Origin: Pseudobacteriovorax antillogorgiicola
GTDB lineage: Bacteria; Bdellovibrionota_B; Oligoflexia; Oligoflexales; CAIYRB01
Assembly (NCBI GenBank): GCA_945862295.1
Contig: CAMAXT010000019.1
Coordinates: 1 to 36,029, forward strand
Direction: 5' to 3'
DNA: 36,029 nt
Position numbers and translations under genes: made by a program. The first letter of the stretch is position 1. Each line of letters begins with the position of its first letter. The notes beneath the pieces are model-generated. The model saw nothing but the letters and a program-made list of their open reading frames with translations, was not told the DNA's origin and did no database searches. Shown in pieces: positions 13,543-26,653 of this stretch.

Positions 13543-14823
13543 ATGGCGTTAGATGTAAAAGTTCCTGCTGTCGGCGAATCTGTACAGGAAGCGATGATCC
13601 ACAAATGGCATGTCAAAGCCGGCGACTTCGTTGCACGCGATGCTGTGTTACTCGAAATTGAAACAGACAAGGCGACTGTCGAGGTCACTGCCGAGTCTGA
13701 AGGTGTTATCGAAATCTTAAAAAAAGAAGGTGAGACGGTCGGTATCGGTGACGTCATCGCCCGCATTGATACTGCAGGCGCGAAACCTGCTGGTAAAGGC
13801 GCAGAAACGAAGGTTCCTCCACCGCCTCCAGCTGCTACTGCCGCACTCGCAGCAGCTAAAGAACCAACTGCTGCTCCAGCGACAGACAAAACTCTTATGC
13901 CAGCTGCAAAACGCATGGTTGAACAATTCAACGTCAACGCCAACGCCGTCGAAGGTACTGGCAAAGGTGGCCGCGTTACTAAAGGTGACGTCATCGATCA
14001 TATGGAAGGTAAGGCTGCTCCAGCTGCGACTGTCACACCAGCGGAAAAACCCCCAAAGGCTGCCGAGCCTGCTGCTAAGCAAGCAGAAGCTAAAATGCCG
14101 GTCTTAAACCGCGCTGGACACACTCGCAATGAACGCCGCGAGCCAATGTCGATGCTGCGACGCCGTATCGCAGAACGCTTAGTGAACGCGCAACAGACTG
14201 CTGCTATCTTAACGACCTTCAACGAAGTCGACATGAAAGCGGTCATGGATCTTCGTAAGCAGTACAAAGACTCATTCAAAGAACGTCATGGCGTTGGCCT
14301 AGGCTTCATGAGCTTCTTTGTTAAGGCAACAATCGAAGCACTCAAACAATACCCAGCAATCAACGGCTGGATTGAAGGCAACGAGATCGTCTATCACGAC
14401 TATTACGATATCGGTGTTGCGGTTTCGTCTCCCCGCGGACTAGTTGTACCAGTGATTCGCGATACCGAACTCATGACCATGGCCGACGTTGAGAAAGCGA
14501 TCGTCTATTACGGCACCAAAGCTCGTGACGGAAAAATCTCTGTCGACGATATGGCTGGTGGAACGTTCACAATTTCTAATGGCGGTGTATTCGGTTCCCT
14601 ACTTTCAACTCCTATTTTGAATCCGCCGCAAAGCGCAATTCTTGGTATGCACAAAATTCAAGACCGTCCGATGGCGATCGATGGTCAGGTTGTTATTCGT
14701 CCAATGATGTACCTCGCCCTTTCTTATGACCACCGCATTGTCGATGGTAAAGAAGCAGTGCAGTTTCTTGTGAAGATTAAAGAGCTGATTGAAGACCCGA
14801 CTCGCCTGCTGCTAGGAGTTTGA
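13543..14823 (+). CDS. sucB: 2-oxoglutarate dehydrogenase E2, dihydrolipoyl succinyltransferase
   Basis: 426 residues; TTGGAG about 8 nt before ATG 13543. It transfers the succinyl group from the E1 product to CoA within the 2-oxoglutarate dehydrogenase complex. Domains in order: a lipoyl domain (2-76) with ETDKATVEV, Lys43 being lipoylated; an Ala/Pro/Lys linker; the peripheral-subunit-binding domain (about 115-150, [21 protein letters not shown]); a second flexible linker; and the catalytic domain (about 195-426) with [16 protein letters not shown], the active-site YDHRIVDG (His397, Asp401) and the C-terminus DPTRLLLGV. Length and motifs match the succinyltransferase rather than the pyruvate type, and the E1 gene in the same cluster confirms it. 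It is first in the operon, with 4 bp to lpdA. Confidence 0.96.
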
Positions 14824-19099: not shown

Positions 19100-19172
19100 G
19101 GCATCAGGGCATCAGGTGTCAGGGGCATCAGGGGCATCAGGTGGCATCAGGTGTCAGGGCATCAGGTGTCAG
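19100..19172. repeat. Short tandem GCATCA / GTGTCA repeats
   Basis: Starting right after the sucA stop, about nine units of 7-10 bp follow each other: six contain GCATCA and three contain GTGTCA, each joined by two to four bases, mostly G. The last GTGTCAGG unit is also the outer end of the long hairpin that follows. The array does not code for anything on either strand. It could have arisen by slippage or by repeated insertion of the hairpin's end sequence. Confidence 0.8.
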
Positions 19173-19246
19173 GCACCGCTTGTAAGTCCCTGATGGGTCC
19201 CGGAGGGACTCACCCATCAGGGACTTACAAGCGGTGCCTGACACCT
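19164..19246. repeat. Perfect 35-bp inverted repeat (REP-like hairpin / bidirectional terminator)
   Basis: 19164-19198 and 19212-19246 are exact reverse complements (35 bp) around a 13-nt loop (CCCGGAGGGACTC) that can itself pair partly. The outer end reads AGGTGTCAGGCACC, a palindrome-type word typical of dispersed REP-like elements. It lies between the stops of two convergent genes (sucA, + and the TPR gene, -), so it could stop transcription from both sides or shield mRNA ends, though there is no T-tract. No transposase is adjacent. Confidence 0.85.
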
Positions 19247-20215: not shown

Positions 20216-22165
20216 ATGGCCAAAATCGGGGATATGTTCCGCGGAATCAAAATTCCAGAAACAAAGCTAACTCGTCCTGACGAGTTCAAAGCCAATAAAA
20301 ACCATGCGGCAGAAAATCCAGTTTCATTAATTCTCGATGCCAAGGCTCGCTTTCCAAGCATTCCAGATCTCGTTTCCCACCATCCTGCATTTGAAAAAAA
20401 GGCTGAACTGCAAAATCTCATGAGTTATATAGATCAGATGTTTGTTACAGATTGGAAACTACATCGTCACTATGTCGAAAGCGCAAGAGAAGAAGAAAAG
20501 ACCCGACGGATTGAAGTTAGACAACAGATAGAGATCGATGAAAGCGCGCAGCATGCCGAAACTACCGTTCAGAATGAATTAGACCGCCGTGCTTTCTATA
20601 TCCAACGAGCGCTGCAGAATGTTTTGAAACAACAAGACCTGAACGCTCAAATGCGTAAAGAAATCATGGCGCTGTTTCAACAACTCCGACAACTCACTGT
20701 CGAGAAATCCGATAAATTTATTTATGAAACAAAAAAAGATATCAAACAAGGTCAAAAAAGACACGAGGAATATTGGGCGTTTCGTCAAGACAATCTCTGG
20801 AGCGCGACCGGTTCGGGTGGGGTTTCAAAACTAAAGAAAACCGGAGATATGATCGAAGAAGTAACCGGTAAGATCGAAGGCAAAAAAAGAGACGCTATCA
20901 CTGAGCAAAACTGGGAATGGCGTAAAGATAACGTCTTCGTTACCCTACAAAATGGTGGTATGGCGCGTTCCGCAGCTGGTAATGGTAAATCACCAGAACT
21001 CGTGTCGGCAGAAGCCCAACAACCATTGATCAATGAACGTCTTTCGGACTTTCATAACTGGCGCGCCAGTGGATCATACGTGCAAACTCCAAACAACTCC
21101 CTCATGCATATGAAGAATCAAGGTCATCAACCAGAAGGTGCATTCGCGGAACTGAATCGGCCGAAACTGGTAAAAGTTCTAGAAGGACACGTTGAGGAAT
21201 TCAGGTGGGGCATGGCTGGTCAAACACCTAACGGTGGCGTATCCCCACTCTACAATTCCGGGAAAACCACCGAGCTAGCGACAGCTGAAATGTACTGGCC
21301 TGGGCGGCGCGATATTGTTAACGAAAGCCTCTTCTGGCATCACAGTTACCTCTTTAAGCCAACATCGAATGGCAACTGGACTCTTGTACCAGGCCATGGA
21401 AAATCTGTAGGATCGACAGCGGCAAAAGTCGAGCTGCCGGAAAAAGCAGAGGTTACCGAAAACCACGAAACCTGGCGCAAAGATAATCTTTGGGCACCGA
21501 CGCCGAATAATGGATATGCAAGACTTTCAAACGTTGGTGATTCACTGGAAAAGATTTCCTTCGAGTTCTACAAACCAAAGAAGGAAGCACTTCAAGAGTA
21601 TCATGATCAAAAACACATCAATAACCGCTTCGTAGCTACTGCAAATCAAGGCTGGGGACGTCTTAAATCCATTGGCGCTGATATCGAACCGATTGTTGGT
21701 GAAGTCACAAAAGAAAATAAGACTCAGATCACCCAGTATTTTTCGGCGCGCTCCAGTCAAAATCTCTATACTCCAACTGCGAATGACGGGATTCGCCGCC
21801 TACCAGATATCGGAGAAAAATTCGAAAAGATCTCTCTCGATTTATTAGCACCAGATAAGGCGCTATCCCAAACTGATGTAAAGCAGTTTGTAAGAAACCA
21901 ACCGGACACTAGTATCGACCGCGGAACTGGCAGTCCGCTCGTTAACAACGGCCGGCAATCAGAAGAAGCGGCTGTCCCTGCGGAAAAAAAGACCTCCAAT
22001 AACTCATCTCGTCCCTTTGCTGAGTTTCGAAAAAATCTTGCTGCCCTTGAACAATCAACTAGCGCCTTTTCAAGCCACTCTTTAGTTCAAAACCAACCCG
22101 TCAATTCCGACCAAGCCCCGACCACTAATGTTGCACCTTCGGCCGATAGTAAAAAAGCAAGCTGA
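20216..22165 (+). CDS. Unrecognised cytoplasmic protein of eight to nine ~46-residue repeats
   Basis: 649 residues; AGAGGAGG lies 6 nt before ATG 20216. No signal peptide or transmembrane segment. Residues 60-182 are charged and helical, probably coiled coil. Tandem repeats follow, starting at about 183, 232, 279, 326, 372, 417, 463 and 509, with a partial ninth at 555-592. The best copies (417-462 and 183-231) suggest a pattern of WRxxNLWxPT, then NxGxxRL, then NxGxxxExxSxE, then a Pro-Lys helix. The tail (590-649) is rich in Ser, Asn, Gln and Ala and looks disordered. I do not recognise the family. The aromatic WR/NLW and Asn-Gly positions repeat strictly, so it should fold as a regular solenoid, fibre or multivalent binding protein. 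Neighbours (a divergent TPR gene, a small membrane gene) give no function. Confidence 0.7.
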   Translation: MAKIGDMFRGIKIPETKLTRPDEFKANKNHAAENPVSLILDAKARFPSIPDLVSHHPAFEKKAELQNLMSYIDQMFVTDWKLHRHYVESAREEEKTRRIEVRQQIEIDESAQHAETTVQNELDRRAFYIQRALQNVLKQQDLNAQMRKEIMALFQQLRQLTVEKSDKFIYETKKDIKQGQKRHEEYWAFRQDNLWSATGSGGVSKLKKTGDMIEEVTGKIEGKKRDAITEQNWEWRKDNVFVTLQNGGMARSAAGNGKSPELVSAEAQQPLINERLSDFHNWRASGSYVQTPNNSLMHMKNQGHQPEGAFAELNRPKLVKVLEGHVEEFRWGMAGQTPNGGVSPLYNSGKTTELATAEMYWPGRRDIVNESLFWHHSYLFKPTSNGNWTLVPGHGKSVGSTAAKVELPEKAEVTENHETWRKDNLWAPTPNNGYARLSNVGDSLEKISFEFYKPKKEALQEYHDQKHINNRFVATANQGWGRLKSIGADIEPIVGEVTKENKTQITQYFSARSSQNLYTPTANDGIRRLPDIGEKFEKISLDLLAPDKALSQTDVKQFVRNQPDTSIDRGTGSPLVNNGRQSEEAAVPAEKKTSNNSSRPFAEFRKNLAALEQSTSAFSSHSLVQNQPVNSDQAPTTNVAPSADSKKAS

Positions 22166-23916: not shown

Positions 23917-23983
23917 GTTAGTGCAGCATTTATCAGCCAGTCTGAACTAATTATTGCCCTCTCATCCTAGATGTGTTGAATTC

Positions 23984-24002
23984 AACCCTATGGAGGGTTT
24001 TT
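23984..24002 (+). promoter_or_regulatory. Hairpin overlapping the M48 ribosome-binding site
   Basis: AACCCT (23984-23989) pairs with AGGGTT (23994-23999) across an ATGG loop; the GGAGGG ribosome-binding site is partly inside the stem. A 12-bp palindrome, GTTGAATTCAAC, stands directly upstream (overlapping by the final AAC). The pair could modulate translation or be bound by a regulator; both readings are inference. Confidence 0.35.
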
Positions 24003-24005
24003 ACC

Positions 24006-24788
24006 ATGCTTGTTAAATCGTTAATTGCCATCAGCGTCGGTATCCTAACAACTATTGTTAGCTGCGTTACTACTCCTGAAACCAACCGCAAACAGTTTGT
24101 CGCTGTCAGTGAAGGCCAAATGGCAAATCTAGGTGAAGACGCCTGGAAAGAAATCAAAGCCAAAGAACAGATTTCAAAAAACACCCAGATGACTGCTTCG
24201 GTCGAAAGCATCGGCCGGAAAATTGCAGCAGCCAGCGGGAAAAATTTCGCCTGGGAATTTAGTCTCTTCGAAAGCAAAGAGATCAATGCATTCTGTTTGC
24301 CTGGAGGAAAGGTCGGTGTGTATTCAGGGATTGTTCCTGTTGCGAAAAACAACGCCGGATTAGCAGTGATATTAGGCCACGAAGTCGCTCATGCCGTCGC
24401 AAGGCATTCCGCCGAGCGAGTAACTCAATCACTTCTTGTTGCAGGCGTACTGATTTCAGTCGACAAAGCCATGCAGGATTCCGGAAGAAAACAAATGGTA
24501 CTTGCGGGCTTAGGCCTTGGCGCGCAGTTCGGCGTGTTACTTCCCTATAGCCGTTTTCACGAATCAGAGGCCGACTCAATCGGTCTAGATTACGCAGCAA
24601 AAGCCGGATTTGACCCACGAGAAGCACCCGCATTTTGGCAGCGGATGAGTTCTAATGGTGGGCAACCACCGGAATTTTTAAGTACGCATCCAAATCCTGG
24701 TAGTCGGATCAAAGCTCTTGAAAATCAGATGTCCGAAGCCATGGCAATCTACGAAAAAAGTCCGAAAATTCCGACAGTCGCTCTCTAG
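24006..24788 (+). CDS. M48-family metallopeptidase lipoprotein
   Basis: 260 residues from ATG 24006, preceded by GGAGGG; longer frames back to 23973 lack a site. The signal sequence ends TIVSC (Cys20, lipobox). The zinc site is H125-E-V-A-H129 in GHEVAHAVARHSAERV, with the third ligand in HESEADSIGLDYAAKAG (Glu of ESEAD). These are the M48 hallmarks. The layout (lipobox, ~250 residues, GGKVGVYSGI before HExxH) matches periplasmic outer-membrane-facing M48 proteins such as LoiP/YcaL and BepA-type quality-control proteases. It probably degrades misassembled envelope proteins. No adjacent chaperone or TPR partner is encoded on this strand. A hairpin lies 54 bp past its stop. Confidence 0.92.
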   Translation: MLVKSLIAISVGILTTIVSCVTTPETNRKQFVAVSEGQMANLGEDAWKEIKAKEQISKNTQMTASVESIGRKIAAASGKNFAWEFSLFESKEINAFCLPGGKVGVYSGIVPVAKNNAGLAVILGHEVAHAVARHSAERVTQSLLVAGVLISVDKAMQDSGRKQMVLAGLGLGAQFGVLLPYSRFHESEADSIGLDYAAKAGFDPREAPAFWQRMSSNGGQPPEFLSTHPNPGSRIKALENQMSEAMAIYEKSPKIPTVAL

Positions 24789-24979: not shown

Positions 24980-26653
24980 ATGGCTTTCCTCAGACTATGT
25001 ACCATTGCAATGATCTTTGTTGCAATTAGCTGTCAGACCAACGGAAAAAAAGATGCCAGCGAAACGATGACAACAGTCGTTAGTTTCAAAGCACCAAAAT
25101 CTGGTCAGCTGAACGGGTACTTAAAGATAGACGCGGCAACAACAAAGATTCCAGTTTCATTCGAGTTAATACCACTACGAAACAAAGGCGACGAAACAAC
25201 TTACAAAGGTCATTTGAAGCTTTCAAATGGCACGCACGGCGGGCATGAATACGCCTCCTATAATTTTGAAGATACGACGTTTGATGTCGAAACTAAGATC
25301 TTGAGTTTTATGACCGTCAACGGTCAAAATTTAATGAATTTGAGATTTACCTCCCCTGAACGCAGCACGGGCATGATTCGTATATCGACAGGACAACAAG
25401 CAGAGCTAACTCTCCTGCATGAAAACCTGCAAACAGGTGAAGAAGTTCTAGCAAGCATCTATCCAAGCATTCCAGAATCAAAAACCATCACAGGCGACTA
25501 CCGAGGCCAATGCGGCCCTGACAAAGCTATTCTTGAGATTGAAGCTAATAAAGTCCGTGGACATTCACCAGATGATGCAGGTGAACTCAAAGGCTATGAA
25601 ATTTCCGCTCGGCTAGGACAATCGGATGTTGACACCTGTAAAGACCGCGTTTGTTTTAAACGATACTATTCAGAAGGTACTTTTAATATGTTTAACGGCC
25701 ATCTAAGTCTAAAAGATGGCAAGACGGTAACCGACTGTCAGGTAGCTGGGAGTAAGTTAACCTGTGGAAATTGTGTTTTCGAGCAACAGCAATATTCTGT
25801 CTACGCATCAATAGCCGGCAAAAATAATCAGCAAGTTAAAACAGCTGCAATTGTCCGAGATAAGAACGTCAACTTTGATTCCAGTAGAGGTCAGTTTTAC
25901 GGATACGTCCACAACGCCAAACAAAACACCTACCAACTCATCGCGATTAATATCTTTAACGAAGAGGTGCTTGGTACCGCCGACGCAGATGATAACCTAC
26001 CAGCTCCTAAAAATATTCAAGGTGTCGCTACCCTCTACTTTGGCGAAGGTGATTCAAACGAATACATCGCTTACAAAATGAAAGACGCTTCTATCGACCA
26101 GAAAGATCAGACGTTTTTCTGGGATTCAGAGGGAGAGATCCTACTGAAAGTGATGTCCTGGAAAAACGGTTACATGGTAGGTGACTGGATCTCTAGAGCT
26201 TACGGACGTGTTGGAAATTTCATGGTGCAACGAAACAACATGCCAACTATGACAACGGATATAAAAACTCTACCAAAAATATCCGGCATCTATGCTTCTG
26301 ATACTTGGGAGTTCGAAATCGGTTCTTATTCAGAGCTGTCTGAGGACTCGCAAGAGATCTACCCGCTCAATTCGTACGGTTGGGCAAAAGAAAAAGTACC
26401 ACACGCCCGTCGACGCATTATTAAAAAAATTAATTACGATTTCTATAGTGGCATGGTCGCGTTCAATTTGGATGACGGCCGCACCATTATTGGCAAAGCA
26501 GGAATCAATGCAATGACGATGTATTGGTGGCCACGTGTAAACTACGGTCAGGCTTTTGTTTCTGTCGAACCAATGGAGTTCAAAAAAGTCTCTGAGAGCC
26601 CAACACCACAGGCTAGTGCAGAAGACTTTCTGCGTAGCTTAAAAGATCGGTAA
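24980..26653 (+). CDS. Large lipoprotein of unknown function
   Basis: 557 residues; ACGAGGA (24967-24973) precedes ATG 24980. The signal sequence ends VAISC (Cys18, lipobox), so it is a membrane-anchored envelope protein. The mature part is beta-rich with regularly spaced acidic and aromatic residues. A cysteine-bearing middle section (about residues 180-270) has Cys in QCGPDK, DTCKDRVCF, DCQVAGSKLTC and CGNCVF, enough for several disulfides. Late segments such as YGYVHNAKQNTYQLIAINIF and FWDSEGEILLKVMSW suggest repeated two-strand units. I recognise no enzyme motif or named family. Convergent with the GGT gene 20 bp away. It could be a surface or adhesion-type lipoprotein, but this is a guess. 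Confidence 0.7.
   Translation: MAFLRLCTIAMIFVAISCQTNGKKDASETMTTVVSFKAPKSGQLNGYLKIDAATTKIPVSFELIPLRNKGDETTYKGHLKLSNGTHGGHEYASYNFEDTTFDVETKILSFMTVNGQNLMNLRFTSPERSTGMIRISTGQQAELTLLHENLQTGEEVLASIYPSIPESKTITGDYRGQCGPDKAILEIEANKVRGHSPDDAGELKGYEISARLGQSDVDTCKDRVCFKRYYSEGTFNMFNGHLSLKDGKTVTDCQVAGSKLTCGNCVFEQQQYSVYASIAGKNNQQVKTAAIVRDKNVNFDSSRGQFYGYVHNAKQNTYQLIAINIFNEEVLGTADADDNLPAPKNIQGVATLYFGEGDSNEYIAYKMKDASIDQKDQTFFWDSEGEILLKVMSWKNGYMVGDWISRAYGRVGNFMVQRNNMPTMTTDIKTLPKISGIYASDTWEFEIGSYSELSEDSQEIYPLNSYGWAKEKVPHARRRIIKKINYDFYSGMVAFNLDDGRTIIGKAGINAMTMYWWPRVNYGQAFVSVEPMEFKKVSESPTPQASAEDFLRSLKDR

Follow-up and report, generated by a model that had tools for sequence, protein, structure and literature searches.

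An eightfold array of an apparently undescribed 46-residue repeat on a predicted helical head protein of Oligoflexales-like bacteria

The window analysed here is a stretch of 36,029 nucleotides from Pseudobacteriovorax antillogorgiicola (contig CAMAXT010000019.1, forward strand). Its central part carries, in this order, sucB, lpd, sucA, a TPR gene on the minus strand, the repeat-protein gene that is the subject of this study, a small membrane gene, and the genes of a Rieske oxygenase, an M48 protease and a lipoprotein. The repeat-protein gene (20216..22165, + strand) starts with ATG immediately behind an AGGAGG-type ribosome-binding sequence and encodes 649 amino acids; the coordinates given in the initial annotation are exact, and orthologs are present in two relatives, G004 and G005. 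The product has a pI of 8.7 and contains no cysteine. A hydrophobic stretch, a signal peptide and a lipobox were looked for by eye at its N-terminus (MAKIGDMFRGIKIPETKLTRPDEF) and none was seen, so that the N-terminal marks of an exported or surface protein are missing on inspection; with neither an export signal nor cysteine seen, the protein is probably intracellular.

Several other features of the region were recorded. An 81-base near-perfect palindrome (19165-19245, + strand; DNA fold z = -13.5) lies 66 bases past the stop codon of sucA and adjoins a tandem array at 19100-19173. On seven contigs of the same genome the pattern of its arm is matched 13 times, in most cases by two arms paired in inverted orientation, and 18 relatives have no match; this palindrome is a species-specific mobile hairpin element or a terminator. 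Further downstream, the genes at 23973-24788 and 24980-26653 code respectively for a lipoprotein-type M48 metalloprotease and for an uncharacterised Cys-containing lipoprotein that belongs to no Pfam or NCBIfam family. In sister genomes, genes for a bactofilin and, behind it, a NUDIX protein are found a few kb upstream of sucB (L055 882-1520, with equivalents in L052-L054), a pair of which no equivalent was seen within the window.

Self-comparison of the 649-residue protein (ungapped, BLOSUM62) gave scores of 211, 201, 113 and 108 at lags of 46, 92, 138 and 231 residues, against a maximum of 52 among 100 shuffles, which bears out the tandem unit of about 46 residues first proposed for this protein. 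A profile built from eight hand-cut units of the window protein alone, with the orthologs kept out, delimits eight consecutive units of 46-47 residues on the + strand: unit 1 (residues 188-233, 20777..20914), unit 2 (234-280, 20915..21055), unit 3 (281-326, 21056..21193), unit 4 (327-372, 21194..21331), unit 5 (373-418, 21332..21469), unit 6 (419-464, 21470..21607), which is the nearest to the consensus, unit 7 (465-510, 21608..21745) and unit 8 (511-556, 21746..21883). Successive units are thus spaced by 46, 47, 46, 46, 46, 46 and 46 residues, and profiles of single units recognise the remaining ones with hhalign probabilities of 68-96%. The array had been placed at residues 183-592, with eight full copies and a partial ninth; the eight copies hold, its limits move to about residue 188 and residue 556, and the ninth copy (573-591) is withdrawn, having E = 0.2 and being missing from the matches of the 16-unit profile.

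Over its 46 positions, the consensus of the unit reads WRxxNL[YFW]VxT[PA]NGGxxRLxxxGKSxExVx[AG]x[VLI]xxPKK... Among the 16 distinct units compared, Gly23 is invariant (16/16), Glu27 and Asn13 are present in 14 and 13 units, and the Trp and the Arg of the Trp-Arg motif in ten each. Identity between units inside the window protein is only 15-35%, and the DNA of the repeat region shows almost no repeat signal, just short marginal repeats; the units having diverged in both respects, the repeats must be old.

A search with the profile of the window units, as had been proposed, retrieved eight units in G005 and eight in G004, two proteins that are only about 26% identical overall to that of the window. 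Since neither protein had entered the profile, this recovery is the strongest single check of the array. All three long proteins therefore have eight units, in a sample that is small, as it represents two lineages. A 14-residue insertion separates units 7 and 8 in G004 and G005. Unit-by-unit positional orthology between the genera is weak (permutation P = 0.015, yet a shift of +2 scores equally).

The genes of G004 and G005 share 90% nucleotide identity, with an overall dN/dS of 0.12. By region, the ratio is 0.11 for the head, 0.13 for the repeats and 0.12 for the tail, which indicates that purifying selection acts alike on all three. The repeat-protein gene is therefore real and under selection. 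These data bear on the idea that the array is mere filler which expanded passively and now forms a spacer that is selectively neutral or in decay: sister species entirely devoid of repeats and the divergence of the units (15-35% identity) would suit it, but a repeat dN/dS of about 0.13, spacing and key positions preserved over 16 distinct units, and a copy number fixed at eight speak against it, so that this idea is largely refuted and we give it hardly any credence.

The array lies between a predicted helical head and a low-complexity tail. The flexible tail (residues 557-649, 21884..22162, + strand) is rich in Ser, Asn and Gln, and the disorder proposed for it is qualified by a conserved helix-like patch at about residues 600-618 (nt 22013-22069, + strand), delimited from an alignment of the proteins and from the model. 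The head begins with a conserved motif at residues 27-65 (20294..20410, + strand), seen in the alignment, in profile searches and in the open reading frames as read, whose family form is NxxNPxSLVxPxxxRFPxxPxxPxxHPAL, also encountered in forms like NPxSLVxPIxxRFPFxPxMPxxHPAL followed by helix-like sequence. A long predicted helix follows at residues 80-192 (20453..20791, + strand), where local pLDDT is mostly 70-89. The initial annotation had called this head a coiled coil; its helical part stands, and 'helical' is the safer word because hydrophobic periodicity peaks at 3.6 rather than 3.5.

The 649-residue protein carries the SLV-RFP-HPAL motif and then the long helix, the combination by which the Oligoflexales helical-head family is defined here. 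Relatives were surveyed in 58 genomes of one phylum and a single class, among them those of the MAG contigs CAIYRB010000097.1 and JAPLFX010000230.1. A head profile (alignment A7) found matches in 18 of these 58 Oligoflexia-like genomes at E <= 6.1e-4; nine of the 18 had not contributed to the alignment and matched at E 1.2e-47 to 6e-4, and the window gene, itself included in the profile, matched at 4.5e-45. By this profile search, the head region is the conserved part of the protein and is found across the order, although G011 and G022, the two largest genomes and of Oligoflexus size, lack a credible head gene. Proteins bearing it span about 160-790 residues. In four members of the same bacterial family (G001, G002, G003 and G006), a protein of about 160 residues at the same locus consists of the head alone. 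In another bacterial family (f8), the gene of a head protein of about 264 residues (L057 8404-9198; also L085 and L086) adjoins ExbB/ExbD-like genes on the opposite strand. A 789-residue relative (L112, G023:C92) has an internal repeat of its own, of 129 residues and apparently in two copies, which is unrelated to the 46-residue unit and gives a self-comparison score of 107 against a shuffle maximum of 46. In this family a common head is thus extended by repetitive modules of different kinds, of which the 46-residue repeat is one; the 129-residue repeat shows what would be a constant head whose repetitive C-terminal part can be exchanged.

The repeats are narrow in distribution, being confined to one small bacterial family. 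Matches to the 46-residue profile occur only in the window genome, G004 and G005, that is in three of the seven genomes of the family and in none of the 51 other genomes of the phylum. In a tree of sucA, G001, G002, G003 and G006 form one supported clade and G004 with G005 another. A single loss of the repeats is the simplest reading; alternatively, as the tree does not separate the branches at the base of the family, they may have been gained once in an ancestor of the long-form lineages. Searches of phage, plasmid and viral-contig sequences found no relative of the repeat protein, and an origin from any of these was rejected for want of matches there. A role in defence was likewise set aside, PADLOC returning no match of note.

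No known repeat class was matched, in line with the initial annotation. Neither the whole proteins nor single units had an acceptable match in Pfam, no family of NCBIfam or PHROGs passed its curated threshold or scored a significant E-value, and among PDB sequences no acceptable match was found for the repeat protein or its unit. Four known systems nevertheless share some features with it. The PQQ or quinoprotein-like beta-propeller (PF13360, BamB type) is also made of tandem units of 40-50 residues, frequently eight in number, which contain a Tyr-Val-x-Thr/Ser-x-Asp/Asn-Gly hairpin and then Gly-Lys; unlike it, the 46-residue unit has the Trp-Arg motif and a charged helix-like stretch, and no signal peptide is seen in the protein. 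Profiles were compared with 14 propeller proteins from the relatives, aligned, with unrelated families as decoys. The unit reached an hhalign probability of 1.1%, decoy families up to 1.6%, and a double unit, at full length, 0.3%; in the positive control, a single PQQ blade found its sister blades at 54-96%. A PQQ-type propeller is thus rejected at the level of sequence.

The Asp-box or BNR repeat has an S/T-x-D/N-x-G hairpin turn once per unit, and the core of this pattern is present in the array, with T in 11, N in 13 and G in 12 of 16 units. Position 10 of the Asp-box is obligatorily aromatic, and a non-aromatic residue there is unreported in known structures (PMC2716378). The corresponding column of our 16 units has, as its five commonest residues, R (6), H (3), P (3), K (2) and L (1), on which ground the Asp-box was rejected; Pfam BNR does not match the 46-residue units either. 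TPR and other alpha-solenoids resemble the protein in being repeat arrays with helices, and a TPR-like gene adjoins it; they differ in that the 46-residue unit has a predicted hairpin and the protein no TPR match. On these comparisons the repeat is real and undescribed, at least as judged from sequence. The look-alikes failed by sequence only, and a known fold with an unrecognisable sequence is possible.

The fourth resemblance, to a segment of E2 acyltransferase (ATPNGL...KSLxEI), joins a similar 28-residue string to the presence of such an enzyme, encoded by the neighbouring sucB. It belongs to the proposal that the protein is a partner of the 2-oxoglutarate dehydrogenase complex, with repeats imitating this segment. 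The gene stands behind sucB-lpd-sucA in the window, in four sister genomes the head gene immediately follows sucA, and the best PDB profile match of the unit is the E2 segment VAVATPNGL. That match, however, has E = 0.9, and the organism's own E2 (13543-14823) is absent among the matches listed, which extend to E of about 54; mimicry of E2 was accordingly dismissed as chance. The gene also lies about 10 kb from sucA in G004 and on another contig in G005. Moreover, in other families sucA is directly followed by the M48 gene (G008, G013, G016 and G035) or by the lipoprotein gene (G014, G020, G026, G029 and G032) with no head gene between them; because these adjacencies exist elsewhere, the head gene must have moved into an older cluster. 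A function shared with 2-oxoglutarate dehydrogenase is not supported beyond location, and such a partnership is very improbable. The conserved link of sucA, a cytoplasmic TCA enzyme, with envelope genes in several families of the order is an unexplained observation in its own right.

Other neighbours do not provide partners. The initial annotation had suggested co-occurrence of the TPR gene and the small membrane gene with the repeat protein; a search of 40 other genomes found no match to either, so the notion that the three form a unit fails and both genes are rejected as partners. The lipoprotein gene lies downstream of the head or repeat gene in all seven genomes of the family; in the three genomes with long forms the M48 gene stands between the two, and at this locus M48 accompanies only long forms of the head gene. 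The M48 protease was nonetheless rejected as a partner: its homologues occur elsewhere in the sister genomes, and it stands behind sucA in other families.

Structure prediction performed poorly. AlphaFold2, run with seven sequences, returned a model of mean pLDDT 42, in which a single helix, with local values of about 70-89, covers residues of about 80-190 and hairpins are placed, with low confidence, at the TPNGG turn of the repeat units. A two-unit construct with eleven rows (non-overlapping set A10) reached pLDDT 62 and shows a hairpin, then a long helix. Positions 25-33 of the unit are a strand in the pLDDT-42 model and a helix in the pLDDT-62 model; their alternating V-x-A-x-V pattern points to a strand, and residue propensity slightly to a helix. 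Both models contain hairpins and helices; as their confidence is low, one hairpin plus one helix per unit is only suggested. Foldseek, queried with the weak pLDDT-62 model, found nothing at E <= 0.001, and no propeller was built in either of the low-confidence models.

The count of eight raises the question of whether the units close into one toroidal domain, be it a propeller-like ring of eight blades or an eightfold ring of another kind, with one ligand bound in its centre. Exactly eight units are kept in proteins just about 26% identical overall, the usual size range of propeller blades accommodates 46 residues per unit, most units have their predicted hairpin at a corresponding position, and NLYVxTPNGGxxRLxxxGK resembles a PQQ-type blade by eye. 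Against such a ring, the units compare with PQQ-type propellers no better than unrelated families do, in contrast to the mutual recognition of true blades. AlphaFold2 usually recognises propellers, and the pLDDT-42 model, itself of low confidence, contains none. Residues 36-46 of the unit are charged and helix-like, and the 14 residues inserted after unit 7 in G004 and G005 also count against a ring. Overall, we regard a toroid as rather unlikely. For the array the initial annotation had proposed a new solenoid, filament or multivalent scaffold; with the number of units constant at eight in the two divergent lineages, a closed ring or a length-controlled rod would be no worse an explanation than an open scaffold.

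The repeated Trp-Arg and basic positions could also be taken to follow a polymer such as DNA or RNA, as a polyanion- or nucleic-acid-binding array. In favour are the conserved W and R (10/16 each), the K or R often found around unit positions 18, 20 and 37-38, and the strongly basic proteins of G004 and G005 (pI about 10; repeats 9.6-9.9). The repeats of the window protein, however, are just mildly basic (pI 8.0), so repeat charge is not conserved, and no nucleic-acid-binding family was matched in Pfam or NCBIfam; binding of this kind is distinctly unlikely.

Our preferred reading, held tentatively and at somewhat short of even confidence, is that the gene encodes a lineage-specific, probably cytoplasmic, putative scaffold with a helical head as its core, an eightfold array and a conserved C-terminal helix. 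The word scaffold is here the default guess for a repeat protein that has no catalytic signature. The helical head would be the constant functional core, serving for self-association or for docking to a partner, and the repeats an add-on to it that is missing in sister species. Each repeat would form a beta-hairpin, with TPNGG at its turn, and then a strand and/or a helix; the eight units might be stacked as a single array, elongated or closed, that presents eight similar faces toward a ligand or partner, and the C-terminal helix could dock a further partner. The probability left beyond the five readings discussed here belongs to explanations that we have not thought of. The stronger proposal, in which the 46-residue unit is a repeat fold outside the known classes and its fixed eight-unit array is carried by a helical head protein to which different lineages of Oligoflexales-like bacteria attach different repeat modules, is in our judgement possible and on the unlikely side.

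If the fold were new, it would add a repeat class of precise length, eight units in each of the two lineages, and a single small construct could suffice to solve its structure. The conserved helical head may be the more useful result, as an unannotated family recurring in an understudied bacterial order. With eight 46-residue units in one lineage, a 129-residue repeat in another and none in the sister genomes, both the function of the head alone and the role of the modules attached to it become testable.
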